DNA from: Allacma fusca
Lineage: Eukaryota > Arthropoda > Collembola > Symphypleona > Sminthuridae
Direction of reading: 5' to 3'
Length of the DNA stretch: 64,000 nucleotides
NCBI GenBank assembly: GCA_947179485.1
Contig: OX359246.1
Location: 46,851,632 to 46,915,631, forward strand
Below the pieces are notes generated by a model, which saw only the letters and a program-made list of their open reading frames with translations, ran no database searches and was not told the origin of the DNA. Positions 22-47,011 of the stretch are shown here, in pieces; position 1 is the first letter of the stretch, and the number at the start of each line of letters is the position of its first letter. Both the position numbers and the translations under genes were made by a program.

Positions 22-1163
22 CAGACCTGCGTTCGGGTCAAATATTTTGAGGATCCGAACTTGAACTTGACCTGCACTTGAACTTCCAAGTAGATATTCG
101 TCAGTACCCGAACTTGGCGTTTCGGTTCACAGGAATTACTTGCCATACCAAGTCATATCTTGCAAGTAATTTTTCCTAAACCCGAACTTGATCTGATACT
201 TGAATGTCGGGTCCATAAATCTTGAGAACCGAACTTGGAATTGACTTGAACCCGAACTTGGATTTCAAGTAATTACTTGAATCTTGCAACTTTGTAGTAT
301 GAAGTCGCAAAACCATTCCAACGGGTGGAGCTAAGATTTTCAATTTCCATCGTCTCTATTAAATTCAGATTCGGGTTCACTCATGGTTTTTTCCTAGTGT
401 TACAGTCTCACCTGACAATTTACTTCAACAGTTTTTCAAAAAAGACGAAAAATTAGAAGAATAGTTTTAAGCACGACGATTTACAGAATACACAAAAGTC
501 ACTGCAAATGAAAGTGAGCTCCAGCTTCTGTGCATGTCTCTGCAGGCATGGTTTCTAGTAGGGATGCCAATGGTCTGGTCCGGACCATTTATAATGGTGC
601 ATTATTGGTCTGGTCCGGTCTGATACAACACTTGGACCACACCAGATACAATTGGTCCAGCTTCAGGACCAGACCAGACCTGATCACAGGATCATGGTCT
701 CAAACGTACGCAAAATAAAAATCTATGAGTTAACGAAATCCCATTGAACAAGTTAAAACTGACATTTCTGGAGATAAAAGAAGAATTTGACGGGATAAAA
801 TTAATAATGATAATCACTAGTTTCTAGAATGCGTGTTACAGAAGTGCGAACAACCAATGGCGAAGGACGCACAAAGGAATCAAACGTTGGAACTAAGATA
901 CTTGAATCGGTACTTGAAAGTTCAAGTTCGGGTTCAAGTAAAATCCATGCCTAGATCCGAACTTGAACTTGATCCTTAGTGCAAGTCAATTCTGTGGGCT
1001 TGCACTTGGACCAGAACCGACTTGAAGTTCCAAGTTCGGATCCAGCAAATACTTGAACTTGACCCGATTCAACCAAGTAGAAACGCTCATGATCCCGAAC
1101 TTGCCCCGAACTTGACCTGACTTGATACTTGTCAAGTACTACTTGAACTTGAGCGCAGCTCTG
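22..1163. mobile_element. hAT-like non-autonomous element built from CCGAACTTGA-type repeats
   Basis: The element is bounded by an exact 8-bp target-site duplication, ATTACAAT, at 14-21 and 1164-1171. The terminal inverted repeats are imperfect: CAGACCTGCGTTCGGGTCAA on the left against CAGAGCTGCGCTCAA read inward from the right. Both arms (about 22-300 and 900-1163) are filled with degenerate copies of motifs such as CCGAACTTGAC and CAAGTTCGGG. The middle is not repetitive and appears to hold a second, nested element (559-819). An 8-bp duplication is typical of hAT transposons. No transposase coding was seen, so mobilisation would be in trans. Confidence 0.8.
559..819. mobile_element. tentative nested hAT-like element with GGTCTGGTCC repeats
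   Basis: An exact 8-bp direct repeat, GTTTCTAG, lies at 551-558 and 820-827. The interval starts TAGGGATGCC and its complement from the other end starts TAGTGATTAT, so terminal symmetry is weak beyond TA. The left half is dense in GGTCTGGTCCGGACC-like quasi-palindromes. It sits inside the element at 22-1163. The direct repeat is good evidence; the poor inverted repeat keeps this tentative. Confidence 0.5.
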
Positions 1164-1171
1164 ATTACAAT

Positions 1172-1974
1172 ACAATTCATTCTTCGATTGTTTGGATAAC
1201 ACACCAAACAAACTTTGAAGGTGTGTTGTTTATAATGCATACAAGTGTATAATGAGTTTCAGAAGAATTCATTTTAAGTGCATGTATTCGTGAGATTGTG
1301 ACAATTATTTTGGAAGGAGCCATTCTTCTGTAAATATTCTAAATTGTTGATTTAATCATGTAATAAAAGTGAATTCAATTCCAAAATTATTTGTATTATT
1401 TAATTTCCAATTATTGTATCTTTATAGTTGCATAGTATTTTAACTTGGATAATTGTTAGAATAAATGTCTACCGCCATGCGGTAGAGATGTAAAATAAGA
1501 ATCATTATCATTGGGTGGAAACACAGGTCAAAATTACCCCGCGCTCAGAAAGTATCTCTGTTATCATTATGAGTACATAATTTTTATTCAATTTTGAAAA
1601 TTTGATGTTTTCGTTATGAATAACACCCCACAGCATGTACCACTGAAGTCATTCTGGATTTATTATGTTCTTACAGTGCTAGCTTGGTCGTAAAACTCGT
1701 GGGGGGGGGCCAACGCTAGGTCACCAGGGCAAAGTCCCTTGGTATATGCGTAAACGTTTGTAAATTTCAAGGGAACTTACAATTAGGAAAATAGAGCTTT
1801 GACATTACATGTAGTGGGGCTTCACAGCCTAAGTGACTTTAACATGTGGTGCTGATCACTGAATATTTTTAAGAATAATTCGTATAAAAGAATCATTTAT
1901 TTTATTCTTACAATTTACAACCTGTAACAAATACATAAGATCTGGTAGGTAAGTTTCTTTTTGTAATATAATAG
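1172..1974. other. intergenic, no gene seen
   Basis: AT-rich sequence with a run of nine G at about 1701-1709. From about 1866 it matches the 3' flank of the degenerate transporter copy (about 8580), so the transporter duplication extends at least 110 bp past the stop codon. No coding signal was found. Confidence 0.5.
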
Positions 1975-8028: not shown

Positions 8029-8365
8029 CAGGGACGGGAAGGGGCATGAATACGAATACTTTTTTAAAACTTGAGATACGAAGGAAATACTTGACAAAGA
8101 GCTTTGTACGGTCGAAACAAATTTACAATTCTTGATATTTTTTTTCGGATACTAATTCCGATTCCGATTCCAATACTTTTCTTTAAACCCATTTTGTTGG
8201 TATTGTAAGTATCGAATTTCAAAAATTCTTTGTAAATTCCGATTCTACTATTATTGATCCATTTGTCTATACTTACAACTAATCAATGCAACTGTCCATT
8301 TACAAACAATCGAGGTACAAAGTTTTCGGGGCACTGTGAAATTCGGATTCCGATTCCCGTCCCTG
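8029..8365. mobile_element. short hAT-like element with GAATTCCGATT-type repeats
   Basis: Exact 8-bp target-site duplication CTTTACAG at 8021-8028 and 8366-8373. Terminal inverted repeats CAGGGACGGGAA / TTCCCGTCCCTG (12 bp, exact). At 337 bp this is the smallest clear member here. The ends carry degenerate ATTCCGATTCC/GAATACGAATAC repeats. It shares its terminal repeat with the larger element at 46062-47011, which keeps a hAT transposase remnant, so the two belong to one family. Confidence 0.9.
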
Positions 8366-10260: not shown

Positions 10261-12323
10261 TTCATGATTCTGAAATACGGTACATTGTCTATATACGAGC
10301 GTTCCTTAATAGAGAGCCAAGACTTAGTTATTAATGTGTGAACTGATTTTAGATTTTACTGTAGTTGTAGGAGTCATATTCAAATTCATTAGTAAATAGG
10401 AATAAGCAATAATTGGAATAATGGATGTTCAAAATTAAACCATTACGTCTGTTCGTTGCCACAAATACAGCGTTTTCTGGTTGAGACTAATTCGATCTAT
10501 TGTTACTTTTTATGTTGCTTTAACCTACGACTTTATTAAAACTCCTTATTCAGATGAAATTAAATTTGTACATTTACACAAGGTATAATAAACGGTGAAA
10601 ATAGAGTTAGATATTTGTACAAGTGAAAAAATATATGTAATTATGTAACTAAAGGTTACGCACTTAACACTTCTTATTGGAGCAAGCTGTGAAATTTTTA
10701 GGTCACGGAGTCATAAGTCAAATTTAGCTGAGAATGGTCATCATTTGTCATTCGCCCGTTGAAACTCAATTTTTACATAATACTTACGCATGTCACGGTT
10801 AATAATAATTCCTACCACTAAACCTTACTTAGTTTTTATTTTGCTTGTGCTTCCAAAATAAAATGTCATAATAGTTTTATCTACTGTAGGAATCTTCTCC
10901 CTTTTACGACCGTTCCCATTTTTCTGTCATACAAATATTACTTATATGATCATTTTCATCTGAACTTACGGCGTGGAACGATTGTACGATAAATTGGATT
11001 CATCATGGTGCTAACATAAGTGTGAGAATAATAACTAGCTGAATGATGAGAACTGACTCTGGAAATTCCATTGAGACTGGTGAAGCAGGGAGTCGAATTA
11101 TTTTATGTAATTGAGATACTTAAACCTCATTTCAAGGTTTCTTCGCAAAAAAATCGACACTGACTCAAAAGTGCAAGCAAATTGATCGTCTTTGCAGCAA
11201 CCCAAGCCGATTTGTTCGGCTGCCCACTTTGAAGTATCACGTCCGTGAGTGCGTGACTTGTCAATCTTTTATGGGTCCGAATTGGAGGTCATATTTTAGG
11301 TTTCAAAGAACGTCACTAAATTAATTTGGGGTGCATGTTACTTCAGAAATAAGCCAGCATGTTCCCCGTAAACAATAATTGACGAATCGCAGAAAACTAA
11401 GACGACATGCAAATTATGTTTGAGTTAATTATTAGAAACTAGCAGATCAACTGCGAGGTACTGAAGGCGATAATTATTATTATTTTTTGAGAATGTAACG
11501 CATTTTTTTTTAAAGCTAGAAATAAAAGCGATTTTCCAATATCCATTTTTTCTCTTCATTTCAGGTTGCAAATCCATTATCAGCATAAATAATACGAGGA
11601 TCATTAAAATTCCCACATATGTCCTGTTCATGAATCATAACTTTCCTCCTTCATCTACAGTAGTCCGGCAGGAGTCAAAGCTATCCACTAATCGTAATCA
11701 TGACATTGCCACTGGTTGATGTCAGAATATATGAATCGTATAGCACTGTAGGAATTATATGCATATTGTTTGTTGCATTCGGTCGTAAATAATTTATAAA
11801 TCGCCTTACAAAATTTGGGTTTCCGAAATTAAACATGGCAGGATAGTAAGTTCGTCACATTTCCTGAAATTCTTACAACCAGGCCAGTGTTTATGCAATC
11901 AAAAGATGACCAAACAATTTCAGGAAAAAAATCCACAAGTTTATAGATATTCATTGAAAGTGAACGGATGTGCAAAGAGCAAGCAGAAAAGCCAAAAACA
12001 TTTGAGAGGAATTCTCATTTGCAACTGATAGATACATGTATATTTTTTCAAGTAGATCCTTTTAAGTTTGAGTTTCTTTCTATAAAATAAAAATTGCAAG
12101 CCAGAAGGTCAAAAAACATGTTTACCCTCCTAGAACCTTCGTTCAATTTAGTGCAATTATTTGGCACACCAGTTTTATTGTCCGGAAAGTGGCTAAAGAA
12201 TTCATTCACTGCTCATAGATTATATTTAACAAGGAAACGATCTACAAAAGGTCTATATCTATAGGGAAATTAGAAAGTATTACAATGAACCCATTGAAGT
12301 GGTGAACCAATTCCTAAACAGCT
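10261..12323. other. spacer within first unit, no gene seen
   Basis: Includes duplicated spacer copy 2 (about 10680-11290) and about 1 kb (11300-12320) that aligns with about 23320-24300. Short open frames are not conserved between the two copies, so they are unlikely to be genes. Confidence 0.6.
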
Positions 12324-15041
12324 TTATTCCTTTTTGTTCAAGTTACTGTCGTCTCCAGCAACAACAGAAGTTAATGGACCATCTATATTTTGTTTCCCAT
12401 CTTCCATCATCTTCATTTCGACATTCAAATCTTCAGCCAGTGCCTCAGGATGATTGTGCTCTAGACTTGAGGCTAAAGCTTGCACGCGTACACTGCGACG
12501 GGTGGATGTCCCGGAAGCGATACCCCTCGCTCTCAAACGTTTATTTGGTTTGTGGAATATCAGGAAATACATGAGGATAATCAAGCCCTGCGCACACGGG
12601 ATTACGTTAGCAGTTAACACTTTAAAATTCAATCCAAGTGGGAAAATTTTATGACAGCAAATTTTAAAAAATTTGTTTACAAGTATCTGTATGTAATGTT
12701 GGCATTGTAATGTTAAAGTATGGCTACTTACATAAGCCAGCATAATACTACCGAAGACCGCTGATGTTAAAGGGTAACCAATACCTTCCACTAGAAACCC
12801 AGCTGCGAAGGCACCAATGACGGATCTAAATATCATAAACTATCATTTCAAAACAGAAATGTCTTTTCTCGCCTTTAAGATATAAATCAGCCCTTAATTT
12901 GAAGTTCGAATTTTTCAATTTCTTACCCTGAGGAATAACCAGTGGATATTAAGCTACATACCATCGCATAGGTAGCGGTTTCATCAGGGTGACCAGCTTC
13001 ACTGTAAATAAAATTATTCTTGAATAATCATTCGAATTTAATTTGGATATGTAATCAAAATTATTCAATAAATGTAAATTAAACCAATAAATTACATTGT
13101 CGAAAGTAAGCAGGCCTCGGTGGCTGGAATGTTAGCGAGGGATACTCCGATTGTAATTCCTACCAGGGCAATAATATTTGACCAGACCGTGCTAAAATTG
13201 AAGTGAAATATTGATTGCAACTATATGTCCTGAATTCCAGTTGTAGTTAAATAAGTAACAATTCAATTCATACAGTCAAATAATCGAAATGTTATCATGG
13301 AATCATCATGTAAAATCTTACTTATCCAACCCGAATATAGGCAATGGTCCGAGTAAGTAAAATGCTCCTCCCCCAAGAACCAACCCGGACACTATAAGAA
13401 TCCAAGTGCGAGTCATTTTGTCAGCTAAAAATCCCCACAGAGGACATACTATCCCATAAAGAACTATAGTGATTTGAAACATAGCTGCCGTTTGACTGCT
13501 GGAGAGTTTTAACTGTGAAGAACAATTTCCAATTTATATGCTGCAATATATACAATATGACATTATAATTGAGCAAAACAATGGAAGTAGTACTGGAGAA
13601 AGATGTCGCTCTAAAGTTGAGTCCATAAAAGCCCAGGACGTTTCTGTGATCAGAACGACCATGACCATCAGCATGGCGCCCGGGATCTTTAATAAGTGCC
13701 AAGGTCTGATATTATTTTTCTGAGGGAGAGTGACCACCTCACCATCAGTGGTGACCTCTTGCTTATTTTTGTCCTGTTCTGGTCCATCGTAAACAGGATT
13801 CTCTAATTGCGAGTCAGCTATTACAGAAGTTTTTTTTTGATCGGAGGGAAGCAAGAAGAAATGTAACGCTAATGAGATAATGTTAAGAGCTCCAAAAAAA
13901 ATTAATGAGACTGCGAATCCTGCTGCCTGGAATCAATTTAAATGTGACCATACATTTAGAGCAAACTGAAAGGGTCTAAGTAGGAAAGCCTTTAGAATTT
14001 TAGAAAATGTTCAGTTTAATTTAATTTTTAATATAGTCAGTAATAAGCTCATTGTAATACTTACGCCATGAAGAACTCCTCCTATGGACAGGGCTGTAAA
14101 TTCAGCAATACCAATGAATAACTCGGAAGCTCCCTATAAACAACAGAGCTAGCATAAATCTTTGTGAGTACGCTCAGGTCTAATCCGCTATCACATTAAA
14201 GTCTGAAATTTTAGGTTACGTTTTTTCATGGGGGGTAGAGTACAGATTAACGACTAAATGAGAATAAATATTCTAGAATTTGAACACTGCCTACTGCTTA
14301 AGAGTAGTAAAATGACTCACTAAGAAGAGGTTAAAATTATCGGGAAACATTTTGGCAGCGTAGGTCTGAATTGTAATAAAGGTAATTGAACCACCTAAAG
14401 ACGCCATGCTCAGGCATGTAAATGAGCCTGCAATGAACCAATTGTATGAGGGAGCCATTTCTAGTAGCCTGCAAAGAATAATAAAATCCAAGTTATTGTT
14501 AACAAGAACACGAGCATTTACAGAACATCGGCTATGGAAATGGATGACATCCTTTACCCAAGAAAGATAATGAAGATGGAATTCATAGAGATTCCAGTGA
14601 TAAAGCAAGTTTTTGGTCCAAAGGCTACAATCTGAAAGAATTTAGTTTAAATTATTTGATTAAATAGCTGACAACTCACCATTTATGTCTTGTTCGTTAA
14701 AATACTTACAGCCATTCCTATAAATGGTCCGAATATGACGCTGACCGCCTGCTGGACTGAGAACATGATTCCTCTTAGGATATTTCCAACTCCATGTTTC
14801 TCTGACTGGAAGTCCGAAAAGTGACGGGAAATGGTAGATGACATCAATTTATTATAATTTTACTACTTTACAAACGAAATTAGTAATGGTTGAAAATAAA
14901 ACATTCAATACGTACCTCCGCTGGGAAAAAAGGCGTTATTAGCGAGCTCGGAGCAACCACACAGAAAAGCCCATAAAATAAAGCCACAAACACCAATTTT
15001 TGTTCCCGAGTCAAATTTCGGACGTCATTGAGGAATGACAT
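12324..15041 (-). CDS. SLC18B1-like MFS transporter (gene B), 11 exons
   Basis: Paralogue of gene A with identical intron positions. Exons: 14916-15041, 14710-14805, 14558-14631, 14321-14468, 14065-14133, 13594-13926, 13322-13512, 13096-13191, 12927-13001, 12732-12825, 12324-12587; total 1566 nt, or 521 residues. The start MSFLNDVRNLTREQKLVF and the segment ending ITPFFPAE match gene A in position. Exon 6 is 24 nt longer than in gene A, in the charged central loop (around QLENPVYDG). The tail is polar, ending NLNKKE. A polyadenylation-type AATAAA on the minus strand (12323-12328) overlaps the stop codon. The function is inferred as membrane export of a small organic cation or amine. Confidence 0.87.
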
Positions 15042-17189
15042 TTCTACCAGTGTGAATTCCCTATTACGTGTAATAATTATATCTGGAATAAAAAAGCAAA
15101 CTGAACTAATTACTAACGTCCAGAGGCTAAATATAGTTTTTTTTAATCTGTAATATTAATCTGACAGTTTCCATAAAAAATATAAAATTCTCACAGTGGA
15201 AAGGTTATATAAAAACTACATATTTTGTTAGCATTGCTGGATAACAAAACTGGGAGTGAGTGTCTATTCACACGACAAAGTTGTTAAAGGTTTCTGAATT
15301 CAAGGTTGCTGTAGAATGAATAGAAAAAGAACAAAAAACGGCGTAATAATTCGTATTGTGTTGAGTATCTCAACGCCAGCCACTGATCGCTTTAAATTCA
15401 ACTTCTCATGCTCATTTTGTCAAATACTTTGTCCACATACACTTTTAATCTTTTAAATTAAAGGGCATTGAAGTTTTATGCATGGGGCTTTTCCCTGCGG
15501 TGTACACAAAATTGCTATTACCTTAAAATTAAATTATTTGAAATACATTTACATAATTATTAGTAAATTATGTTTACGCTGCAGGTCTTTGACTTCGTTT
15601 GAAATTATGCACATGTGTTATGACTTAGCACTGGGCAGATACTGCTTTAATATTTTAACAATAGACATAAAAAACCTACCAATTCAATCTTTAGAAGCTC
15701 TTTGTATGAACAGTATTTTTATAAGTACTGCAGTTAATGTTTTACTGAAGGAGAACCACTTCACTTATTTCTGCTCGTTATCTCACAAGCGTTGGGTTGA
15801 GACTACAGAACTTCGAGTCAAACCTCTCTGTCTGAATCTCCTATAATTATTATGTACAAGGAGTATGTCAAGTCCTTGCACAGATTTTTTGCTTTATTGA
15901 AGTTACATAAAATAACAGTATATACTTTTCTTGATTTGTACTACTTAGTAACATGGGTTTAAGAAAATTATTCACTTATCTCTATACACAACAAGTTCTC
16001 TTACAGTATTCAATACAGGTTTAATCAACGTTATGGAGCCGCTTTTGAAAGTTGTATGTTTGGGGGGTTAAGTGCGAAATTTTAATTCCTACTGCATTAA
16101 GTCTTCAAACTCCTGGAATTTTCTTTCCGAAGTTTCCGTGACCTTAGTGCACATGATAGGGGTCACCTCATTCCACTTGTTCAGTAAACGTTTCCAAAAT
16201 CCGGTTTTTTCAAATTTGTCGAAAATTTGTAAAAAATGCTCTTTAAATACAAGACTGAAAAATCCAAAGGAAAGAAACAATCGTTTTAATAATGATAATA
16301 ATAATAATTAATATTAATTTACCTTTACTCATGCTGAATTATGGAGCAATAATGAAACCTCATAGAAAAAATTAAAAGACAGAAACGTACAATTACTATA
16401 AATCAATCAAATTTGTATGAATGAATGTTACGCGAGTCAGTTTTATGGATAATTTATGTCAATGAAGAAGAGTTTCTTCAGGATCTCACAAGTCTCACAA
16501 TCAGCTTGACGTATGTACTTATATGCTTTTCTACGTACATGTGTATCTCTATGTAGGTACGTGCGTACATACGTGAGTATGGGCAAGTTGAGTTTTAAAT
16601 TCAAGTATTTATTATATTTAATAAACTTCGTCGCTTATCTCAACTCATACAAGAAAATGAAAGAATTTGACAAAATTACGCTTCAGACTGAGCGTTGCGT
16701 TACATTTTAAATGAGGAATCGCAGGGCCACATGCATAAAATTCAATTACTGCGATTTATTTGGTTATTCACCCTGGTTGGGACTATTGGAATGAAATATA
16801 TAGATTCCAGGCGTTCCTGTTTTTATAGAATCGTTCTTGTTAACTTCCTTCGTCGTTGAATCTGGAATAATACTTCTCTAGTTTTAGAATTTTAGAGAGG
16901 GGAGGAATTCCAAGTGAATTAATTATCTCACCCTTCCCTTGCAGCGATAAAAACTGGTCTTTATAATTGTTATGCTATATATAAGTACTTTCAAAGAACT
17001 TTTCCCTGGAATTATTATTTTTTATTATTGATAGTTTTTACATTGACTAGATCCTATAATAATTAATATTATTGGAGTGAGCTTTAATTATTGAAAAAAT
17101 GTTTCTTCTCATTAAAAAGATGAAATTATCTGCTTCTATACATATTGGGAAATAATTAACACGGATGTATAGTACACAGGTTTAACGCC
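15042..17189. other. intergenic between gene B and P450 relic
   Basis: Aligns with about 27024-28260 plus 30555-31540 of the second unit. At about 16262 the two halves are joined directly, whereas the second unit carries about 2.3 kb more at that point. The open frames at 15478-15846 and 16072-16311 are not kept intact in the second copy, so no gene is called. Confidence 0.6.
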
Positions 17190-28900: not shown

Positions 28901-29067
28901 GTGTGAGGTAAAAATCCTGTGTAATTTGTGTTACAGTAGGTCTGAAAAAAAGTTTCTGTAACGAGAATCTATGTACATATCTAAGAAACAGTCAACTATG
29001 ACAAGTATTTGTTCTTAGATTTTTCGTGAATACCTCGATTTTTAATTTTTTCCACCTATGCACCACC

Positions 29068-30302: not shown

Positions 30303-31540
30303 GCACCACCACAGTAATTATTATACCTAGCTGGAAACAAAGGTGTCCAAATAATCAGGCAATGTGGACAGATGTGGTGAGATAACAAATTCTTAACTCT
30401 ACCACGAAGTTACATTATACAAAACGAAACTTGTTGCAAAAGTGTCCCAGAAAACAAAGTGGCTCTATAATGTTGATTGGACCACGTATTAGCATTTGAA
30501 GATGTGCTTACATATTTACAGATGCAAACCAACACACTGACAAAAGCTGCACGAAAGAAACAATCGTTTTAATAATGATAATAATAATTATTATATTAAT
30601 TAATAATAATTTCGGTCATAGTAAATAAACAGTAAATGAAAGCATGCAATATCTGGAGTATTTTTGTGAGACTTCAAGCTAGAAACCTTTACTCATGCTG
30701 AATTATGGAGCAATAATGAAACCTCTTAGGAAAAATTAAAAGACAGAAATGTACAATTAGTATAAATCAATCAAATTTGTATGAATGAATGTTATGTGAG
30801 TCAGTTTTATGGATAATTTATGTCAATGAAGATTAGTTTCTTCAGCGTCTCACAAGACTCACAATCAGCTTCACGTATGTACTTATATTCTTTTTTACGT
30901 ACGTATGTATCTCTATGTATGTACATGCGTACATACGTGAGTATGGGCAAGTTGAGGTTTAAATTCATGTGTTTATTATATTTAATAAAGGCGTCGCTTA
31001 TCTCAACTCATACAAGAAGCTGAAAGAATTTGACAAAATTACACTTATGACATGACTGAGCGTTGCATTACATTTAAATGGTGAATCGCAGGGCCAAATT
31101 CAATTACTGCGATTAATTTGGTTATTCACCCTGGTTGGGACTATTAGGAATGAAATATATAGATTCCAGGCGTTCTAGTTTGTATAGAATCGTTCATGTT
31201 AACTTCATTCGTCTGATTGAATCTGGAATAATAGTTCTCTTGTTTTAGAATTTTAGAGGGGGGGTTTCATAGTGAATGAATTATCTCACCCTTGCCTTGT
31301 AAACTAAAGTCTTTATAATTGTTATGCTATATTTACTTTCAAATAACTTTTCACATTAATTATTATTTTTTATTATTGCTACTTTTTACATTGACTAGAA
31401 CCTATAATAATTAATATTATTGCAGTGATTTTTAATTATTGAAAAAAAGTTTATCCTCATTAAAAAGATGAAATTATCTGCTTCTATACATATTGGCAAA
31501 TAATTAACACGGATGTATAGTACACAGGTTTATTAACGCC
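30303..31540. other. downstream flank of P450, no gene seen
   Basis: From about 30555 it aligns with 16263-17189 of the first unit. It contains short AT repeats. The AATAAA complement at 31529-31534 is annotated separately. Confidence 0.5.
31529..31534 (-). terminator. candidate polyadenylation signal of P450
   Basis: AATAAA on the minus strand just past the P450 stop codon. The broken copy has a four-base shorter sequence here and lacks the hexamer. Confidence 0.45.
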
Positions 31541-33890
31541 TCAACGGTGTTTCAAAATAATTTCAAATGGCTTCGGAGACAGCGTGGCCCCAAGGTGTGG
31601 TTCTAGACTTGGTAATTTTCCGGTCGAGGATACTACAAACCTTTGGAACAATGCAGTAGAAAACAGAAATAGTTCATCTCTTGCTAAACTTTCCCCAATG
31701 CAAACCCGTTTCCCAGTCGAAAAGGGCATCATACTCTCATTTTTCTTGACTTTACCATCCTCATGTAAAAATCTACTGGGACGAAAATCCTGAGGGTCAC
31801 CCCATACAGCTTCGTCAAAATGAGCACCGTAGGAGTTCGTAATGATCATAGTGTCCTTTGGTATGAAAAACCCGTGGAACTCCAAATCCTCGGTTGTACT
31901 GTGAAAATTCATAGCGGCAACAGATGAGTATCGCATGGTTTCACTGATAACTGCCTCAGTGTAAGGCATGGACGGACGATCCCCCAAAGATGGAAGTCGT
32001 TCTTTCCCAACCACCTCGTCAATCTCTCCCTGTAATTTCTCTTGAACTCCTGGATGATGAATCAGGTACACACAGATCCAAGCCAACGTCGTACTGGTTG
32101 TTTCGGATCCTGCTTCGAATAAATCAAGAAGAGCAAACGGCATTACCCCACGTTCAGGGTGGAAGCTTGAATTCGGATCTTTAGTTTTTCTGACTTCGTC
32201 CGTGTAAGCATCAACATAATCCCTTGGTTGTTCCGGGATATAGTTTGCATTGTGTTGATCAATCTTTTTGTTGATGAAATTGTTCAGAGGAGTAGCTTCC
32301 TCCATCATCTTGATATATCCTGACAATGTAGGAGAGATTTTGTTTATCCAGGGCATGAAGATGGCAAGGCTTGCAAAAACGCTGATGTTTCGGAAATTTC
32401 TGGAAAGTATTATCAAATACTACATCAATCAGAAGTTTCGTGTTTAATCACATGGTATCATTTAATTATTTATCTACATCCGAGCTGGCAATAAATGTGT
32501 AATGTTCGTTATCTATCTGTATCAGTAATTGCCTTTTAAGGCGTAACTTATTTCTCCCCTGCCTCGTAGTAGAAGGTGTTTGAAATATTTTTGAATTTAA
32601 AGGAAGGTTTTCGCGAATGAAAACCTGCATTGACCTAGTCAAACCATGACATCATATCCCTCATCAAATGAGTGACACAAAGTTAGGATTATTTTTCGAG
32701 AAACATTTCCAATTTTGGAATTCCCATATGTAGCGAATTCGACAGCTGGAATCCAACGCCAATTCTGGTGTCTTGTCAAAATCTGTAAGTCGAATTCTTA
32801 AACGCTTGTTTAATTGAGACTGGGAAGGTAAATACATACTTCGTTACACCCTATACATTATACTAAATACAAATTATTATTTTAAATCATACATGAGAAA
32901 TGAGACTTACGCCGTTATTCTAGTAACAATATCCCGTACTTCTGGATCCTCTGGGTCAAGACGCTCTCCAAACATGATACTCCATAAAGCATTGACCATG
33001 GCAGCATTGAACACATTTTGTACCTCCATGGGCTTCCCTTCATTAGCCTCAAGTCTACCCAACAAGGCCGTGACCTCCTCTTGAACTTTTGCTTCCATTG
33101 TTTTTGTACCGAAACCGAAATCTCGGAGATTTCGTAAAGCAAACCTGCGTTGTTCTGTCCATTCTTGACCATCAGTGAAGACGACGCCTAGCAATAAGAA
33201 TAAACAACAACATTCAAATTACCTCACAATCACTTCTTCAAAGACACTTTCAAGTAGCTGCTCCCCATGTATGTACATATATATAATTATTTATACCTTT
33301 TGCAACCCCATCGCTTCTTGCCGTAGTAAAGTTCAGGGGGGGTCTTCCTGAGAACGTGTTCAAGTTCAAGGCTTCCTTAATTAATTTTGTATCCTGTATT
33401 ACCACCGTTCTAAATTTATTCACAGTGTTATAAAAATGATTAGAGTAATCATACCTTCAAAGTGTATTCGCATGCATTTTTAAAATTAAATAAATTTAAA
33501 TAGCAGTAATAATAATTCAACTTATAATCTCTAGGAAGTGCGTCAGATCACAGATATTGCATACCGATAGCTGCCAAACCAGATCCCAATTATTGGCCCG
33601 TAAGATTTCTTCCATTTGATAAGAGTCTCGTGAGATTTTGGCCCTAACAGTGGCAAATGGCCCAGTAATGGAAATCCCCATGGACCTGCAGTAAATTAAT
33701 AAACACAAAATTTACGTTCCCGATTTACCTTAAATTTGTTAAACAAAAAAGTTATTATAATTACAACTAGAATAATTATTATTATTCCATGTGATTTATG
33801 AATATTACCTGGAGGAAAGTTTTTAGGCCTTGATGACAAGTTCCAGACGACAAATAATAAAACAACAAAAGCAACAAGTTCAAGTATCAT
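31541..33890 (-). CDS. cytochrome P450, CYP2-clan-like, intact, 5 exons
   Basis: Microsomal haem monooxygenase; the substrate is unknown. Exons: 33809-33890, 33565-33685, 33297-33409, 32911-33187, 31541-32399; junctions are in phase and total 1452 nt, or 483 residues, normal for the family. The N-terminus is a hydrophobic anchor (MILELVAFVVLLFVVW) followed by a proline-rich hinge ending in GPWGFPLLGHLP. The C-helix WTEQR, I-helix EAGSETTSTT, ExxR ETMR, DFRPSRF and haem loop FSTGKRVCIGE, with the ligating cysteine, are all present. Oxygen-activation and redox-partner features therefore look complete. It lies next to transporter gene C, and the same pairing occurs in the other unit, where the P450 is broken. 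A role in oxidising small hydrophobic compounds is inferred from family membership only. Confidence 0.93.
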
Positions 33891-34207: not shown

Positions 34208-35950
34208 CAGGGATGTCAACGATTAATAATCACGATTAATGATTAACGATTAATGATTACTAATTATTAATCATCAATCGTTAATTTAGTAAGCTTGGAT
34301 TTTTTGAAATAATCATCAATTGTAATCATCAATTAACCTTTTTGCAAAAATTAATCATCAATTGTAATCATCAATTAACCTTTTTCAAAAATCAATCATC
34401 AATTGTAATAATCAATTAACCTTTTTCAAAAATCAATTATCAATTGTAATCATCAATTTACCGTTTTCAAAAACCAATTATCAATTGTAATCATCAATTA
34501 ACCGTTTTCAAAAATCAATTATCAATTGTAATCATCAATTAGCCGTTTTCAAAAATCAATTATCAATTGTAATCATCAATTAGCCGTTTTCAAAAATCAA
34601 TTATCAATTGTAATCATCAATTATCGGGCTGGCGACGTCTCCAAAATTCTAAGCAGTCTAGGGTTCGAAGAAGTTTTTACTAAGCAGTGTCCGATGTATC
34701 TGGCTGATAATATAAAGGATATAATACACTCTGTTTACGATCAGAGCAGTTTACACGACATGAACAGAATCCTGAACTCCTCGTCTCACCCTTTGTACAA
34801 GTTAGCTTTTTAAAATGATAAAAGCAGTATCTAAATACCCACATTCCATTGTCACTCAAAGCCCTACTGTGCCAGTTTCGACTCAACAGCAGTAGGCTAA
34901 TCTATCGAATGAACTGTATTATATTTAATGCAGAATTTTGTTAGCTGTGTGGCCCACCTACACTTTATGACATTGAGCACATTCTGTATGACTGCAAGTA
35001 CTTATGTGATATTAGAACTAAGTACTTTTCACACATCTCAAGAGACTAGTCCTTCGTAATATTTGTAACGCCGACGTGAATCTATGTAAACAACTAGCCT
35101 TCTTCCTAATTTCATGCATTCAAAAATTTGTATCTATGTAATGCATTATGGGTAAGCCCGATTAAATGCAATAAACTGGCCGAACAGGCCTTGATTGATT
35201 GAAAAATAATTGTAATCGACAATTAAATGTTAAAAAGAATTAACAATCATTGTAATCGACAATTAAATGTTAAAAAAAATTAACAATAATTGTAATCGAC
35301 AAATAAATGTTAAAAAAATAAACAATAATTGTAATCGACAAACAAATGTTAAAAAAAATAAACAATAATTGTAATCGACAATTAAATATTTTGTTAAAAG
35401 ATAATCGTTAATTGCAATCCTCAATTAATTAATTTTCAAAATAATCGTTAATCGTTAATTGCAATCATCAATGAAAATTATTTTTAAAGTAATCGTTAAT
35501 TGTAATCATCAATGAAAATTATTTTCGAAGTAATCGTTAATTGTAATCATCAGTGAAAATTATTTCTAAAGTAATCGTTAATTGTAATCAACAATGAAAA
35601 TTATTTTAAAAGTAATCGTTAATTGTAATCAACAATGAAAATTATTTTAAAAGTAATCGTTAATTGTAATCATCAGTGAATAATATTTTCAAAGTAATCG
35701 TTAATTGTAATCATCAGTGAAAATTATTTCTAAAGTAATCGTTAATATTAATCATCAGTGAAAATTATTTCTAAAGTAATCGTTAATTTTAATCATCAGT
35801 GAAAATTATTTCTAAAGTAATCGTTAATCGTAATTATTAATTATTAGTTATAAGCCCATTAATCATTAATTGTAATTATAAATTCATTTTGTTTTCGAAG
35901 TAATCGTTAATCGTAAATTGTAATCACAAAATTGGAAATTGACATCCCTG
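34208..35950. mobile_element. hAT-like element made of 41-bp tandem repeats
   Basis: Exact 8-bp target-site duplication ACTGACAG at 34200-34207 and 35951-35958. Exact 12-bp terminal inverted repeats CAGGGATGTCAA / TTGACATCCCTG. Left (34250-34620) and right (35195-35900) parts are arrays with a period of about 41 bp; the shared core AATTGTAATCATCA has the same orientation on both sides, so the element is not a foldback. Left, inner-right and outer-right units differ in the non-core part (for example GCCGTTTTCAAAAATC against GTGAAAATTATTTC). The centre is a non-LTR retrotransposon fragment (34622-35195). A CGATTAAT motif sits next to the terminal repeat and resembles the array core. Confidence 0.93.
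34622..35195 (+). pseudogene. 5'-truncated non-LTR retrotransposon 3' end
   Basis: Plus-strand frames encode the region after a reverse transcriptase: first a stretch with ILNSSSHPLYKLAF (to about 34814), then, in another frame (about 34866-35035), LCQFRLNSSRLIYRMNC and a CGPP...HILYDCKYL zinc-finger-like end typical of the C-terminus of LINE ORF2 proteins. One in-frame stop lies between the paired cysteines and a frame change separates the two parts, so it is dead. The 3' end finishes with TTGATTGATTG-type short repeats, as in several non-LTR clades. It is inserted inside the 41-bp repeat element. The clade is not assigned. Confidence 0.75.
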
Positions 35951-36434: not shown

Positions 36435-38152
36435 CTAGAGGGTAATTAGAACCTGTCGAACGATTTTGCAAACGGTAATAACAATCACCAATGGAGTCCT
36501 GCTTTTATACTTGATGCCGTAAGCTTTGATAGTGATCGGGCGCAATCGCATCCTCTTCCTATTCGAGTAATTTAACAAACTGCCACAGTTATTAACGAGT
36601 TTCTGTGAATCTTCGTAAACCTGCCCAACTTTGAGGAAGTAAATTAGTTCCATGAAGGGTGATACCAGGAAAGCCCAATTTGAGAAGCTGACCAATGTAT
36701 AAATTGCCATACTGTCATGAAACTTCACCATCCCATAAAATGATACCAAATGGTAGAACACAATGAGAAAGGTCATTATCCTAAAGCTTACTTCGAACCA
36801 GCATGATTGAACGTAAGTATTAAATATTAGCAGTTGTGTGTACAGTTTCCGACTCTCTGCTATTTTCAAGCTAGTTGAATCCGTTCCTCGAATAGCTGTC
36901 ATTCCATTTGTGAACTTGATTTTGGCTCTTAGGTAGCTTAATGAGTTTAGGATGGCAATGAGATAAAATATAGTTGAAAGGAACGTCCAATTAAAGATGA
37001 AGAACCCAATGACGGTGTGATAGTACTCAACGACAAAGAGTATCAGGTACGATGCTGTTGTTTGGGCGTATTTGGGGAGTAATGAGAAGAAATAGCGCGG
37101 ATTGGTCGGCTCGATTGCGTAGAGCAAATTACATGCAAAACTATTGAAATACACGCAAGTAATTGCAACGGCAGGAAGTAGTTGCAAGCATTTTGCGAAT
37201 TTGTTGGCCGGTTGAAGTGGTGAAGCCCCTGCGTAAAAATTGTAGTGTAATAAATCCTCTTACTGTCTAAAGAAAAACAAAAATGCAAAATATTTAAAAG
37301 AGAATGTCCGCGTGCAAAGGGTATCCTAAAGATATTCCTACAATCTTGAGTCTACACATCTCACAGAAACAAAAAGCCTGCAGGATAAAACTGAACTTGA
37401 GCAATTTTATGAACTTTTCTTCGAAGTTATCTAAAGGGTCATTACTGCTTGCGCATTTTAGGCAGTTCCAAGAAAATTTAAGTAAAATTATTAATTAATT
37501 ATTTATTAAAGTATATAATAATATATTGTTACTACAAGAGTACGTGCTACTAGTAGTATCATGCAAAAATATATGATAAATTAAAATTATTAGTAGAGCA
37601 TAAGAATAGATGTAATGTGTATATTTAATCTATGTGTATCTATGTATGTATATAGAAAATATACACATTTTTTGTACACATATGTAAACTGGTATAATGA
37701 CTATTAATCTATAATCACTAAAAAATGGATTAGTATAAATCAAAACTGGAAAGTTACAATTACTACATGCATACGTGCATATACTCACCTGATCGAATAG
37801 AAAAGGTTACTATGAAATTGAACCCATGGACCAAGTCCTCAGATTTCTTCCACATTATAAGATACATAATGAAAGCTGATATATTTATACAGAGCCAGAA
37901 TGAATCCATTACCAAAATTTTTGGCTCTCTTTTGGTGACAATACCAACAGCGAAATTTATTAGCTGATGGACACTCTTTAAACCTACTAGTACCATAGTT
38001 AATTTCCAACCTTTGCTCTGGTTAGCTCTTCTGAATCTTTTCATCTCGCCGGACCAAATCATCGGCAGTAGGTAGAAAGAATTACCTACATTTACGGTTG
38101 ATCCGAAATTTGATAGAAACGATGATTGTTTCAGTCTTTGCATAGAGACCAA
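36435..38152 (-). CDS. putative seven-transmembrane chemoreceptor-like protein
   Basis: Two exons, 37789-38152 and 36435-37228. The donor G|GTGAGT and the acceptor ending CGCAG are in phase; the total is 1158 nt, or 385 residues, the usual size of arthropod gustatory/odorant-type receptors. An in-frame second Met lies at 38143. Several hydrophobic segments are visible, for example around residues 50-65 and 80-100 and, in exon 2, LLPAVAITCVYFNSF, YLILFVVEYY, TFLSTIFYLIAIL and IMTFLIVFYHLV. The C-terminus has a polar loop with RKRMRLRPITIKAYG and then a last hydrophobic helix, an arrangement like the C-terminal region of gustatory receptors. The signature TYhhhhhQF is not evident, so family assignment is inference. 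Ligand unknown. Confidence 0.55.
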
Positions 38153-38298: not shown

Positions 38299-39108
38299 TA
38301 GGCATGAGCGTATCGTTCAATTTTAAAATATCGTTAATATCGGTATCGTTAACAAGAAAAATCACGATACCGATATCCATGAGCGATATATCGGTATTTG
38401 ATTAAATTTAAAGCAATATACTAATTTTGATGAAACTCTATCAGATTTAACGTATTTTTGCAGAATATTCAATATTTGTAATTTATTCTCCTTAAAACAG
38501 CCCGTAAAATCAAATTCCTTGAAAGGTTGAACTTTAAGACCTGTAATACTTCACTTATGACATACCCTGGATTTTTTCATATTAGGAACTGGAGAGCTGG
38601 TAAACGGTGGATCGTTTGAACTTCAATAATTTAAGTAAAATGATTCCGTTCAATTCAAACTGAACCAATCGGTTCAGTTTCGTCTTGAATTGAATCGAAA
38701 TTTTCCGACTCAGAATTGAATTGGTCCGAGCACTATCGGCATCGGCCAGCTCAAACAAACTAAGTTTGAAAATGCTTGCTTACTACAAATAAGCATTTTT
38801 TTTGTATTACTACAGTTCTAACTTCGAATTCAGACAGGTATTTTTAAAATGCTCAAGTTTTATCCGTTTTGCCCAGACTTTTTCAGTGACATTTGTAACG
38901 TTTCACATTCCTTAATAGCTTTACTTAAAAAACAAGTAGTAAGAGGGACACAGGGTGGCATTTTTGAAAATTAAACTTCCTATGTACGATATTAAAATTA
39001 ACCGATATATCGCTTTAAAATTGCGAGAAATATCGTGACATATCGTTGCTTAAAAATGTACGATATGGACCGATATATCGTATCGTTATATCGTTCCGCT
39101 CATGCCTA
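38299..39108. mobile_element. hAT-like element with CGATATATCG repeats
   Basis: Exact 8-bp target-site duplication GTATCTAT at 38291-38298 and 39109-39116. Exact 12-bp terminal inverted repeats TAGGCATGAGCG / CGCTCATGCCTA. The ends hold degenerate ATATCGTTAATATCGG / ACCGATATATCG repeats. A second repeat type (about 38640-38730, TTCAATTCAAACTGAACC-like) lies inside, perhaps a nested remnant. No coding was seen. Confidence 0.92.
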
Positions 39109-39513: not shown

Positions 39514-40615
39514 CAGGCGCGTAGCCAGGAACTGACCAAGGGGGGGGCAACATTAATTAGAACGTACATAATATGACACATTCAATGGGAAATCCAATTT
39601 TACGAATGTAAAACGCATCAAATTTTGCAAACCGAATTTCAGGATTTTTATATTCTCCACGTTTTACGATTCCATCAAATTTGAATGATTTTGGACCAGA
39701 TTTTCAATTTATATTAATATTTTTTTTATTTAATATTTTCAAATGATCCGATTTCCGAGAATTTCCAGACCTGGGTTCGCTTCTATCGTTTCAGCTGGTA
39801 CTTAACCTACTGTTCCTGTGATACACGTCTTTGTTTCGAAAAGAAACTGCGGATATCAGGCGTGCTTGATCTTTTCATAATGAAGAATTAATTACAATTT
39901 ACTAATTTAATAATTCTATCCAGCTTAAAAATTCCCTCAAAGCGATGCGTGTAAGTTACAGGAGCTAAAATCTTTTAATATAAAAATATTTAAAGCCGCT
40001 GTTACCATACTTTTGTTGCCGTTGAAGGTTGAAGTCGAATCGACGAGGCAAAGTGAAATCGGGATTTGGCAATGCATTCAAATGACCCGCTAAGCAAGAA
40101 TGAATACAATAAAAATATACTCTAGAATCACCCAAAACGTCGCTGTAGTGAATGGTTTATTACCCACGTCTACTTCCGGTCAAAAGTTGACCCATCCATA
40201 CGGGCGAAAATCGTATCAAAATGCTTTTCCATTTCGTTAGAAATTTATTGATCTATAAATCCTTTGCTCACGCAATGGACAAACATTGCGATACAATTTC
40301 CGCGCGTATGGATGGGTCAATTAATGACGGGAGGAGCCGTGGGTAATAAATCATTCACACGAAACATGTAAACTTCATGGGTGATTCTAGAGTTATGCTG
40401 TTTATACCCAGATATTTACATGGATTACTGAATATTTTGAGTTTCGCAGATTTTGTTTACAAATAAAAAAAATTGCACTGTCAAATCACTGAAAAGGTTT
40501 GCATGTCTCGGTATGGACTGATTTATTTTTAACTTTTTGAGTGATTTGATAGTATTTTATTTCGAAAGGGGGGGGCAATTGCCCCCTTTGACCCCCTCCC
40601 TTGGCTACGCGCCTG
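39514..40615. mobile_element. hAT MITE with CAGGCGCGTAGCCA ends
   Basis: Exact 8-bp target-site duplication CCTGTAGG at 39506-39513 and 40616-40623. Terminal inverted repeats begin CAGGCGCGTAGCCA, followed by a G-rich run and GGGGGCAA on both sides. Ends of this kind (C-A-G-G-x-G-C-G-T-A-G-C-C) are widespread in animal hAT elements. The interior is unique apart from a nested palindromic element (40119-40393). No transposase was found. Confidence 0.92.
40119..40393. mobile_element. nested palindromic MITE
   Basis: Nearly the full 275 bp is an inverted repeat. It has terminal ACTCTAGAATCACCCA on both arms, then TGAATGGTTTATTACCCACG against TGAATGATTTATTACCCACG, and inner TTGACCCATCCATACG on both arms. 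It is flanked by TAT on each side (40116-40118, 40394-40396), compatible with a 3-bp or TA duplication. It lies inside the hAT MITE and so inserted later. Transcription would give a long hairpin. Confidence 0.85.
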
Positions 40616-43708: not shown

Positions 43709-43726
43709 TCTATAAAAACATTGTTT

Positions 43727-45749
43727 TTAATTATTGTTAATATGTAATATCGGAATGCCTATTTTATATCCTTTCATGTCATGTACAAATATTTTTGACA
43801 AAACTTTGTCTACAGGAATTTCGGTTAAACTTGAGCGGTCTTTAGATTGAAATTTATAAATCTTTAGAGTTTTTGAAGAGCACGGTGATTTAAAATAGTC
43901 GACAAGATTATTGTAAACAAATCCAATAAGTATGATTTCGATATTTCTTTGGACTATACTTTTAACTTTGAAAATAGTTTGGTCATAGGTTAACACATAG
44001 TTGTTGCCAGGTAACTTTGTAATGCAGAAATTCTTTGTTGCGATTCTTCTAAAAAATTGTCCCTCCTCATTTTCACTTATTGAACAAGCTGATTCAATTG
44101 TTAGATCAGCTAGGCTAAATTTTCTTGAATGCTCATTTGAAGCAACAGGTATGTAGTGCTGACGCTCTTGAAGTCTCTTTATAATTTGTTGAAGAGGCCA
44201 TTTTCCACCACGAACAAATTTTTTAACTTGCTGCAAATTATTTTCAAAAGGAAAAGAGCTGAATTCGTCTAGTGTCCCAAATCGTCTAGCATCGGAACAA
44301 ATATGAAGAAGTCCGTGTATGTTGTGTGAAACTTGCTCTTTGCCATATATCTGTGCAAACTTTCCTACGAAGTACGTCATCAAGGATTCCGCATAATTAA
44401 TCATTTTCGGTAAAAGGGATTTGCTACACAGTATGTAAACTGCACAATAAAAGCACAGAAAATGATTATAAACCTCATGTGTTAAAATTCCTTTTAGTAC
44501 TACAGGTGATAAATACAACAAAAATAAACGGAATTCAGTGCATTTCCATCTTGCCAGTTCCGACAATGATCGAGGTATTCGAGCAAATTCAGAAGGAGTA
44601 GATTTTCGTTTTGAAAGTATTAGTTCAGAGAGTAAAATTATTTTGGAGCGAGGAATTCTAAACGGTCTTCGTTTGCCATGGGTCCACAAATTGATCAATT
44701 TTTTAGTAGCCCCAATAAGTATCAAATGCAGGTAATCCAAAGGAACTTGACTCACGAGTCCGACCCGAAGATCTTGGAAAATTGTATCTCCTTTGTGATG
44801 TTGTTGTTGTTCTTTCAGTCTGAATGAATCATCAGTTCGGGGAGTACCTGATACACTTTCAAAACAAACTCTGCGATCTCTGTACTTGCCTTTTTGTTGA
44901 CACTTGCTACACGCATAGTAACCTCCATGGCTGACAGTATTAAGTACAAATGCTTTAGCAGGGGCATCACAAATTATCGCGTTAATTTGTACATAAAATT
45001 TGCGACCATTAAAAATAGCACCTTCAGACTCTAAAAGTTTCATTTCCTCCACAAAGTCGAATAAAAACTCGTTGCAGCTTGCAGGTTTTGAATTTCCATG
45101 AAATATACCAACCACATGAGGAGATGTAGACCCTGGAATTTTAACTTATATAGGCCACACGCTGCTAGATACTACTACTTTTTGTTAATGGTAAACCATC
45201 GATATTAACGTCGATTTTAATAATTTCTTGGTTGTAATAGTTGTTCTTGCTTATTTCTTCCCGTAAACAATTTTCGACTCCCGCATGAAAATATTTTCCT
45301 CGTGAAACGTCACGTAAGCTTAAGGTTCTTGGTGTTTTTAAAAAGGTCCGAGCGTCACGAGGTAATGATTTGCATTCAATGATTTTGTCTTTTAAAATCC
45401 GCAATAATTTATTTAAACTTTTATGGGAAATATTTTTTGTTAAGGCCCATCTTCGAAGTAAGTCTGAAAACGAAACTGATTTGTTTTGAGGCAAAACATT
45501 GGCACGATTTGGAACCGAATGAATTGCAGGATTTATTTCACAATCAGGTATTTCACTATGGATTTCACTGTAAATAACTGGATTTTCAGAAAATTCCCTA
45601 ACAGTTGGAAGATCGCTCGTTGCCAGCTCGAAGTTTTTTGCTGCCTTTTTAGCCAGCCTTGTAGTATGTCTGGAACTTTGAAATGTCATTATAAAAATTA
45701 AACCTACCTGCTCAAGTTCGGGTTCCGTTTTCGTTTTAGTAATTTTCAC
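43727..45749 (-). pseudogene. CACTA/EnSpm-like transposase, frame broken
   Basis: Two consecutive minus-strand open frames make one transposase. The upstream frame (45165-45749, 194 codons) has the N-terminal block with LLRRWALTKNISHKSLNKLL, LPRDARTFLKTPR and VNIDGLPLTKSSS. The downstream frame (43727-45115, 462 codons) has VVGIFHGNSKP, ICDAPAKAF, a GYYACSKCQQKGKY zinc-finger-like motif, RTDDSFR, an HH pair and VPLDYLHLILIGATKKL. A similar order occurs in an animal transposase family usually linked to EnSpm/CACTA. Between them (45116-45164) a frameshift and one stop break the frame, although WPI and SPHVVGIF are still readable. It is probably recently inactivated. Confidence 0.78.
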
Positions 45750-46061
45750 TTCAACCAGTTTGACATTAAACTAATTCAAATCCGTAAATAATAGACTGAG
45801 AATATAATCCGAGCAAGAATCTAACAAGATTCTAGATTGTATTTGGAGCACGCCGTTTTTTAGCAAAAAGCTCGTTAAGGACCCGCTTGATGTCTCTAGT
45901 GCTGTTTGGTAAAGTTTATCGACGTTATTTATTCGTAAACATTACATTATCGAAACGGATAAAATTGACGTACATGTTTCGGTCTTTCTTGCACGCAATT
46001 TTTACGTCAATTTTGTGCAAAATAATTTGCGTCAGATCTTAAGCGCTAATTTACAGTAAAC

Positions 46062-47011
46062 CAGGGACGGGAATTCGAATTCGAATCGGAATTAGAATCG
46101 GAATTATATTCAAAACATTCGGGTATCCGAATCGATATTAGAATTGGAAAACAATTCACCACGGTATTTGTATCCGAAATTGGATTAGAATAAAAACAAT
46201 GGTATTCGAATCGGTATTCGAATATTTTTTAACGAATTCCGATTCCAATAAAGTATCGAGTTTATTGGGTTTTATACTGTCACGTGCGAGAAAATGTTCA
46301 TAGGAAGCATTTTGGAAAGCCGCACGCATGCAATTATAAAACCCACTGGGCAAGTAACGTTTGGTAAACGCAATGTGTATGGTTGGTAATGGGCAGTGAT
46401 TTATAGCCCTAAAATTCCTACAAATAGGATGAGATAGCCGCATGGTGTCGGTCTTACAGGACGATTAAGTGAATCAAGTGTCTTCTTTCTTAATTCTTGT
46501 TCTCATCATGGGGATGAGTAAAACTAATTCCGTTGAAGTGCATTTTAGTTACGATGTGTTATCAAACAAATCGATTTGCAAATATATACTGTCAGAAAAA
46601 ACTAACCGGAAAAGTAGACAGGTTTACAGATTACTCCGAATTTTAAAAAAATGTTATTGGATCAATCCTTGCTTTTCTAGTTACTTACATTTCAGTTGAG
46701 CGTGTGTTTTCTGCGCTTAAATTTATATTAAATGATTGCGTGGTAATGTATAGATACAAAAACGCTTAATGTGTTATGTATCGCTTATGTTTTTGCGATT
46801 AAATTGTTCATTTGAATAAATTCCTATTTTTTTACGAATATCCGAAACGTATTTGAATCGGAATTCAAATTCAGCAAGTATTCAAATATATTGGAATCCG
46901 TATCGGAATTCAAATTTTTATGTATTATAAACAATAATTAAAATTGAAATCAAAACCAGAAAGTATTCGAATTCAAATTTAAATCCGTATTTTTCCGATA
47001 TCCCGTCCCTG
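46062..47011 (+). mobile_element. hAT deletion derivative with transposase remnant
   Basis: Exact 8-bp target-site duplication CAGTAAAC at 46054-46061 and 47012-47019. Terminal inverted repeats CAGGGACGGGA / TCCCGTCCCTG, shared with 8029-8365. Both ends (about 46070-46250 and 46840-47000) are degenerate GAATTCGAATCGGAATT repeats. The middle encodes, at about 46692-46736 on the plus strand, SVERVFSALKFILND, the conserved start of the hAT C-terminal dimerisation domain, soon followed by stops. The rest of the transposase is missing. It is nested in the CACTA-like element. Confidence 0.92.

Follow-up and report, generated by a model that had tools for sequence, protein, structure and literature searches.

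The window, the 64,000-nucleotide stretch of Allacma fusca DNA analysed here, contains eight small hAT-type elements, seven of which carry arrays of short motifs:

22-1163, unstranded: non-autonomous hAT element; target-site duplication (TSD) ATTACAAT at 14-21 and 1164-1171; ends CAGACCTGCG/CAGAGCTGCG; arrays at both ends, motifs ACTTGAA/AAGTTCGG.
8029-8365, unstranded: short hAT element; TSD CTTTACAG; ends CAGGGACGGGAA; GAATCGG-type motif.
28342-28900, plus strand: hAT element; TSD GTGTGAGG; ends CAGAGATGCGCA; GAAGG/AAGGC motif.
29068-30302, unstranded: hAT element; TSD GCACCACC; ends TAGTGCCCC; ACCTG/GTACC hexamer arrays of period 6.
34208-35950, unstranded: hAT element; TSD ACTGACAG; ends CAGGGATGTCAA; ATTAAT/ACGATTA motifs; tandem units of 40-41 bp at left, middle and right.
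38299-39108, unstranded: hAT element; TSD GTATCTAT; ends TAGGCATGAGCG; ATATCG motif at both ends.
39514-40615, unstranded: eighth element; TSD CCTGTAGG; hAT-like ends CAGGCGCGTAGC; no motif array.
46062-47011, plus strand: hAT element; TSD CAGTAAAC; ends CAGGGACGGGA; GAATCGG/AATTCG arrays.

The element at 39514 had been overlooked in the original prediction, and provides an array-free contrast case. The elements are referred to below by their first coordinate.

Exact 8-bp TSDs and short terminal inverted repeats (TIRs) had been predicted for the other seven, and both were found. The flanks are identical at 8/8 positions in all seven, and 10-12 of the 12 terminal bases match in each; the count was made over 12 bases, the range for hAT TIRs being 5-27 bp. 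In 30 order-3 Markov randomizations of the window, 8-bp repeats with inverted ends matching at 10 or more of 12 bases arose as a mean of 1.1 pairs, falling to 0.07 for at least 11/12 and to none for 12/12. The TIR match of element 22 is only 10/12, and its identification leans also on its genomic copies. In 43 TSDs, drawn from three families only, the Ac-type pattern nTnnnnAn (T2/A7) was observed at 60/86 positions, compared with 27/86 for T4/A5 of nnnTAnnn; the pattern is weaker in the 34208 family alone (8/16 compared with 2/16). Membership of the hAT superfamily is supported by these Ac-type TSDs, and by hAT dimerization domains that adjoin termini of the same kind as those of the window elements.

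The arrays were scored by repeated 6-mers against 1,089 background windows of 200 bp, for which the 99th percentile is 18; each array score is the best of several windows, so that the comparison is slightly generous. Six of the seven elements exceed the threshold at both ends. The exception is 28342, where the left end passes and the right end scores 13, so the predicted position of arrays next to the TIRs holds at both ends in six elements of seven. The ends of 39514 score 13 and 9, and thus the plan proposed as common to these elements is shared by those six but is not universal here. Nor does the motif differ in every element as had been suggested, since 8029 and 46062 have in common both the terminus CAGGGACGGGAA and a GAATCGG-type motif. 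The description of the elements as almost entirely motif fits 34208, where 7-mers occurring at least four times cover 67% of the length, but not the other six (11-44%). By this measure 8029 (0.11) and 46062 (0.16) fall below the highest values among 200 control stretches, 0.202 and 0.262 respectively. The arrays extend over hundreds of base pairs. Long tandem arrays were reported by TRF in 34208 only (the 40-41-bp units). A micro-period of 6 bp is present in 22, 8029, 29068 and 46062 and one of 7 bp in 34208, with no clear micro-period in 28342 and 38299. An EM motif search with 8-bp models was set aside, having returned low-information motifs for several elements.

Five families (22, 29068, 34208, 38299 and 46062) were counted genome-wide. 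Each has dozens of copies or approximately 250 termini, and all five are short, non-coding and multicopy in the manner of MITEs. For 29068 there are 33 near-full-length matches including the window copy, and for 38299 there are 38 matches spanning 809 bp or more of the 810; one tandem array on C1 accounts for 15 of these. The left terminus of 34208 has 251 matches with up to two mismatches, compared with 8 for a reversed control. Among 40 scored candidates for 22-1163 there is one further contiguous copy, with 100% identity (rounded), and most others are in two pieces around a stretch absent from the window copy. A perfect TSD flanks 39 of 46 fetched copies of three families, window copies included (34208, 8/8; 29068, 8/8; 46062, 23/30), and at least 7/8 positions agree in 27 of the 30 copies of 46062. 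A search for empty sites, a check proposed originally for related strains, was made with 47 joined flanks (7 from the window and 40 of 43 other fetched copies, with L025, L030 and L035 dropped; element 22 was omitted because its left flank is too short). Excluding spanning matches within the element's own locus, the counterparts of five insertions contain a single copy of the target. The window also includes a duplicated block (10387-16272 with 22400-28265, and 16321-17774 with 30685-32125). This was considered as an empty site for 28342 and 29068, but is uninformative as the other copy is without the entire surrounding host stretch.

Arrays are also present in coding elements. The right 189 bp of 28342 match the 3′ end of a transposase locus, L063, with 86% identity. 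A related full element (L071 plus L046) is 4,206 bp long, with a perfect TSD, GAAGG arrays at each end and a PF05699 match with E = 1.7e-16. We sampled 18 transposase groups, 15 of which had a placed array segment; in 12 of these the array score near the 3′ end exceeds the background 99th percentile, whereas it does not in L040, L047 and L053. The best window of L053 belongs to a neighboring element, and L058 may owe its array to a neighbor as well. Since 12 of the 18 groups sampled show arrays, non-coding elements are not alone in having this design, and a separate class set apart by motif expansion is not supported; the window elements most likely descend from coding elements by deletion. 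Of the autonomous relatives anticipated, a coding relative was traced for 28342, through the end shared with L063, and the related full element L046 contains the dimerization domain; none was found for the other families. No coding parent was found for 22, 29068, 34208, 38299 or 46062, and PF05699 gave no match in the reading frames scanned in 29068. For 34208, the nearest pair of terminus and PF05699 match among those listed (99 termini and 89 PF05699 matches on C1, C5 and C8, 100 of the 251 termini being listed) is 15.5 kb apart. In 46062, positions 46647-46766 may be a remnant of a dimerization domain, judging from a PF05699 match of E = 0.18 and 12 bits, where the cut-off is 21.4. For L043, L062 and L063, no 5′ end was located within the fetched stretches. 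No Pfam match to zf-BED was obtained in six ORFs of the L071/L046 element, and by eye the ORF at L071:719-922 contains a CxxxxC...HxxH pattern.

The similarity of array motifs between 14 groups correlates with the identity of their transposases, with r = 0.671, a value reached in 0 of 10,000 permutations. For the control, noncoding DNA past the stop codon of the same 14 groups, r = −0.001 (4,903 of 10,000 permutations). The conclusion relies on this control, which replaced an earlier one drawn from the 300 bp preceding the domain (r = −0.015), because the domain's coding DNA together with 150 bp correlates as well (r = 0.53). The 14 termini were chosen by eye, from comparison of copies in groups that had several, and in the rest from the shape of the TIR. 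L039, L049 and L055 have no placed terminus and are in no lineage test, and L062, whose terminus was not placed, was included in earlier tests and left out of this one. The correlation survives the masking of alignable stretches (r = 0.495, 0 of 5,000), although the similarity of L046 and L063 then drops from 0.55 to 0.05; motif sharing between L052 and L056 is small (0.04). By eye, the related groups L041, L043 and L060 have the motifs GTAGAG, GTAGTG and GTAACG. Because the array motifs track transposase relatedness while nearby noncoding DNA does not, these comparisons argue for selection acting on the array motifs.

We therefore consider it probable, on the basis of sequence comparison, that these are non-autonomous Ac-type hAT transposons in which the arrays are hypertrophied subterminal repeats, putative docking sites for transposase. 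The agreement of motif content with transposase lineage supports the earlier suggestion that they are amplified transposase-binding sites; we infer that the motifs are the sites bound and that their number matters. Each array would comprise many degenerate copies of the short sequence that the transposase of that lineage recognizes through its DNA-binding part. Such an enzyme, as a multimer, would be expected to dock on several sites together and so locate the ends, followed by cleavage at the short inverted termini and insertion with an 8-bp duplication. Each lineage would have its own motif, kept by selection while the protein diverges, and the layout of the array would turn over, some families having amplified whole 29-41-bp units in tandem.

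Repeated subterminal sites are known in hATs, the motif of Ac being AAACGG. In another superfamily, both ends of CACTA elements have subterminal repetitive regions made up of many short, degenerate repeats, and the TSD is 3 bp. What is unusual here is the size of the arrays and how closely they track enzyme lineages. The house fly hAT Hermes similarly repeats AAG(T/C) at both ends (17 and 14 copies), with an nTnnnnAn target, asymmetric ends and, in one of them, a quasi-palindrome within bp 11-27 that is bound by two BED domains (PMC10368747). Compared with Hermes as described there, the motifs in A. fusca vary by lineage, and the arrays are longer, denser and partly built of tandem 29-41-bp units. 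Ac, Tag1 and Tol2 require ends extending approximately 100-200 bp inside the TIR (cited in PMC10368747), and Herves has the subterminal motif CG/AATTCAT (PMC3143072), but array-dominated ends are not among the features given for these four elements in the accounts consulted. The hAT MITE Mar is likewise short and non-coding, with 11-bp TIRs, an 8-bp TSD and coding relatives with the same ends; its TSDs are however Buster-type nnnTAnnn, in contrast to nTnnnnAn here, and arrays are not among the features described in the source consulted (PMC3517528). A parallel in binding preference comes from CGGBP-like hAT proteins (hAT-19 and others), whose protein-specific motifs match the subterminal regions of their own elements and are AT-rich in two insects; on DNA arrays four hAT proteins preferred motifs that match those found subterminally in their respective Repbase models (PMC8097297). 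Proteins were assayed in that study, whereas here motifs are read from arrays, across many groups of a single genome.

A perfect 14-bp palindrome lies at bp 12-25 of 28342 and 46062, near the position of the two-BED quasi-palindrome of Hermes (bp 11-27; PMC10368747), and three left or 5′ ends have it in all. At least 7 of 8 pairs of the pattern are present in 3 of 31 ends, against a background of 0.79%, the significance being overstated as the pattern was spotted before testing. In the 46062 family the palindrome is perfect in 25 of 30 copies, but with a minor-base frequency of 0.040, compared with 0.020-0.030 in the arrays and middle, it is no better kept. The array-free 39514 has a palindrome too, which is 16 bp long and lies within its right end (bp 30-45).

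Other origins for the arrays can be weighed against docking. They might serve another step, such as transcription, chromatin or small RNAs, or some feature of the inner end other than BED sites that Hermes requires. Hermes ends scrambled past bp 50 or 140 have little or no mobility, yet the BED motifs there are dispensable, and motif copies beyond 50 bp are not needed, which argues against inner sites being required (PMC10368747). Against such a role, motifs preferred by transposases are found in subterminal regions (PMC8097297), and unlike a promoter the arrays occupy both ends of six elements out of seven; we regard it as unlikely. We think it similarly improbable that replication slippage, or repair at the ends of the transposon, left the arrays as by-products with no role in binding. 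Slippage as a local process is suggested by the 41-bp units of 34208, whose exact anchor strings vary among eight copies (6-9 left, 4-7 middle, 9-12 right), by 29-bp units in L045 and by short micro-periods in many families, but nothing links it to hAT excision repair, as had been proposed. Slippage alone would not lead us to expect motifs that track transposase lineage, even after masking, when the noncoding DNA at these loci shows no such relation; and the length of 46062 is nearly constant (948-970 bp in 30 copies). Binding sites might instead have multiplied as a selfish strategy, by which non-coding copies outcompete coding ones for transposase. The repeat content of 34208 and its approximately 250 termini would fit this, but the coding relatives also bear arrays, and the 189-bp end shared by 28342 with one of them makes it doubtful to a like degree. 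Nothing was found in favor of insertion into, or construction from, pre-existing simple sequence. This reading is already contradicted by the arrays being enclosed by the TIRs and accompanying the element at many sites whose TSDs differ, and has a negligible chance of being correct.

If the arrays are docking sites, they may constitute a genome-readable record of transposase specificity, the motif changing stepwise with the protein, a view that we advance only tentatively. If true, the protein-to-motif code of a class of DNA-binding domain, and its coevolution, would be readable from sequence alone. This bears on the role of the inner subterminal sites, in Hermes as well, and on how a transposase shifts its specificity without losing its ends. 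The presence of many lineages with large, lineage-specific arrays in one genome provides a natural experiment, in which each lineage allows its motif to be set against its protein. Motif-dense blocks that may get masked as low-complexity sequence can be the ends of transposons.

Seven hAT-like elements, named here by their start in the window, had been predicted from sequence, and exact 8-bp target-site duplications (TSDs) were present at the predicted positions of all seven, each with short inverted termini in which 10 to 12 of the 12 terminal bases match. The whole window was scanned for exact 8-bp repeats 150-4,000 bp apart that flank inverted ends, with a threshold of at least 10/12. This returned the seven elements and one more at 39514-40615 (CCTGTAGG; CAGGCGCGTAGC), which has inverted ends and a TSD, lacks motif arrays and was absent from the original prediction. 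Thirty order-3 Markov sequences gave a mean of 1.1 such pairs at ≥10/12 and 0.07 at ≥11/12. Seven of the eight elements have ends matching at ≥11/12. The ends of element 22-1163 match at 10/12, and its assignment rests also on its copies.

Arrays were scored as repeated 6-mers per 200-bp window; in 1,089 background windows the 99th percentile was 18 and the maximum 33.

Array scores at the left/right ends of the elements
Element 22: 59/53
Element 8029: 37/35
Element 28342: 33/13 (right end below 18)
Element 29068: 83/85
Element 34208: 123/116
Element 38299: 30/27
Element 46062: 62/35
Element 39514: 13/9 (below 18)

By this score, the arrays predicted for every element are found at both ends of 22, 8029, 29068, 34208, 38299 and 46062, and only at the left end of 28342. 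By coverage with 7-mers occurring at least four times, 8029 and 46062 scored no higher than the highest of 200 control stretches. The micro-period is 6 bp in 22, 8029, 29068 and 46062 and 7 bp in 34208; the same analysis gave none that was clear in 28342 or 38299. The 34208 family has additional units of 40-41 bp, and exact anchor strings in eight copies number 6-9 in the left block, 4-7 in the middle and 9-12 in the right. Arrays of similar style to this 41-bp array were seen at two other loci, as a long run of TTTGAGGCTCAAAGG units past the terminus in the last 800 bases of L061, and as 29-bp GAAGG units at the 3' end of L045.

In the 393-Mb assembly (91 contigs), the elements 22, 29068, 34208, 38299 and 46062, for which copies were counted, are multi-copy families. 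Family 34208 has 63 matching pieces among 39 candidates scored. Its left terminus, allowing ≤2 mismatches, occurs 131 times forward and 120 times reverse genome-wide, against 4 + 4 for the reversed control, and all eight fetched copies (1,671-1,918 bp) have a perfect TSD. For each other family 40 candidates were scored. Among 30 fetched copies of 46062 the TSD is perfect in 23, matches at 7/8 in four and at fewer positions in three. Family 29068 has 13 full-length matches at ≥97% identity, including that of the window, with a perfect TSD in 8/8 fetched copies. Element 22 has one other contiguous full-length match (100%, rounded), most others being in two pieces. For 38299, at least 809 of 810 bp are covered in 38 matches, 15 of which lie in G000:C1:14558088-14589146, 14 of them at 2.03-kb spacing; here the transposon is part of a larger unit repeated in tandem.

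For 47 insertions, the two flanks were fused around a single TSD copy and matched against retrieved sequences. In five cases (L028, L013, L024, L003 and L010) a counterpart at another locus continues across the insertion site. L028 is a 46062 copy within a 34208 relative, and its empty state is represented by the 34208 element of the window; L013 is a 46062 copy within a 38299 relative. The original prediction requires a single target copy at empty sites, and this is what all five counterparts carry; in those of L013 and L003 one of the 8 bp is substituted, and that of L024 has a gap 8 bp past the target.

The hAT dimerisation domain (PF05699) was used to look for coding relatives, giving 860 candidates, of which 150 were scored and the best 30 fetched, forming 18 groups. 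The 3'-side array segment could be placed in 15 and the terminus in 14; array scores exceed the background 99th percentile in 12 of the 15. Motif types include TAGAG, GTAGT, GAAGG, AAGGC, GAGTT, TAACG, TGAAC and GGATA. One complete coding element (L071+L046, 4,206 bp), flanked by a perfect TSD, carries the domain and has arrays at each end. For 28342 a coding relative that shares one of its ends was found: the right end of 28342, with its array and terminus, aligns over 189 bp with the 3' end of L063 at 86% identity, so in this lineage the array is common to both. Just past the terminus of L048, whose transposase is of a different lineage, lies sequence resembling the end of element 22 (CAGTGCTGCGATCGGGTCAAGTAA...).

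We compared 5-mer content in the 150 bp adjoining the terminus with transposase identity in 14 groups. The two are correlated (r = 0.671; 0/10,000 permutations), and 12 pairs with ≥60% protein identity have a mean motif similarity of 0.306 vs 0.048. In a 15-group set the correlation remains when alignable stretches are masked (r = 0.495; 0/5,000), and unmasked r stays ≥0.49 whichever single group is left out. The noncoding stretch after the stop codon at the same loci (116-150 bp) gives r = -0.001 (4,903/10,000). Since this neighbouring DNA lacks the correlation that the arrays have, the comparison argues for selective constraint on the array motifs. Against this, the domain's own coding DNA also correlates with transposase identity (r = 0.53), the similarity of the pair L046/L063 falls from 0.55 to 0.05 on masking, and L052/L056 have little motif in common. 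Part of the signal therefore reflects common ancestry at the outermost bases.

The window has other features. A block at 10387-17774 is duplicated at 22400-32125 (pieces 89% and 92% identical) and includes P450 reading frames (Pfam, 31541-32419); 28342 and 29068 lie within a longer insert in its second copy. Further reading frames have no Pfam match.

Reading frames without a Pfam match
43727-45770, minus strand: frames of 472 and 201 aa, possibly a transposon-derived gene
36435-37259, 58096-58686 and 59119-59607, minus strand: frames hydrophobic by eye, possibly chemoreceptors

Subterminal repeats are already established for hAT elements, so those described here are known in kind. Among the titles and abstract openings listed by searches of an open-access library, a coverage that omits most subscription journals, we found no report of array-dominated hAT ends, nor of motif content traced across transposase lineages within one genome.

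For Hermes, BED domains are described as binding a short motif that recurs at the ends. Two of them occupy a quasi-palindrome within bp 11-27 at the left end, and the octamer is proposed to bring together domains in sufficient number to locate this end (PMC10368747). In a similar place, bp 12-25, elements 28342, 46062 and L046 have a perfect 14-bp palindrome, differing in sequence and confined to the left or 5' end. This fits a putative two-domain site placed as in Hermes, in a small sample where the pattern was spotted before testing. Four hAT proteins are reported to favor motifs that correspond to subterminal sequence in their own elements (PMC8097297). Docking along the whole array is, however, opposed by the report that mutating the inner left-end motifs of Hermes leaves ~70% of its activity; its authors conclude that motifs past 50 bp are dispensable and some other inner feature is required (PMC10368747). 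Even so, the arrays are most likely transposase sites, whose number and layout would drift by local duplication.
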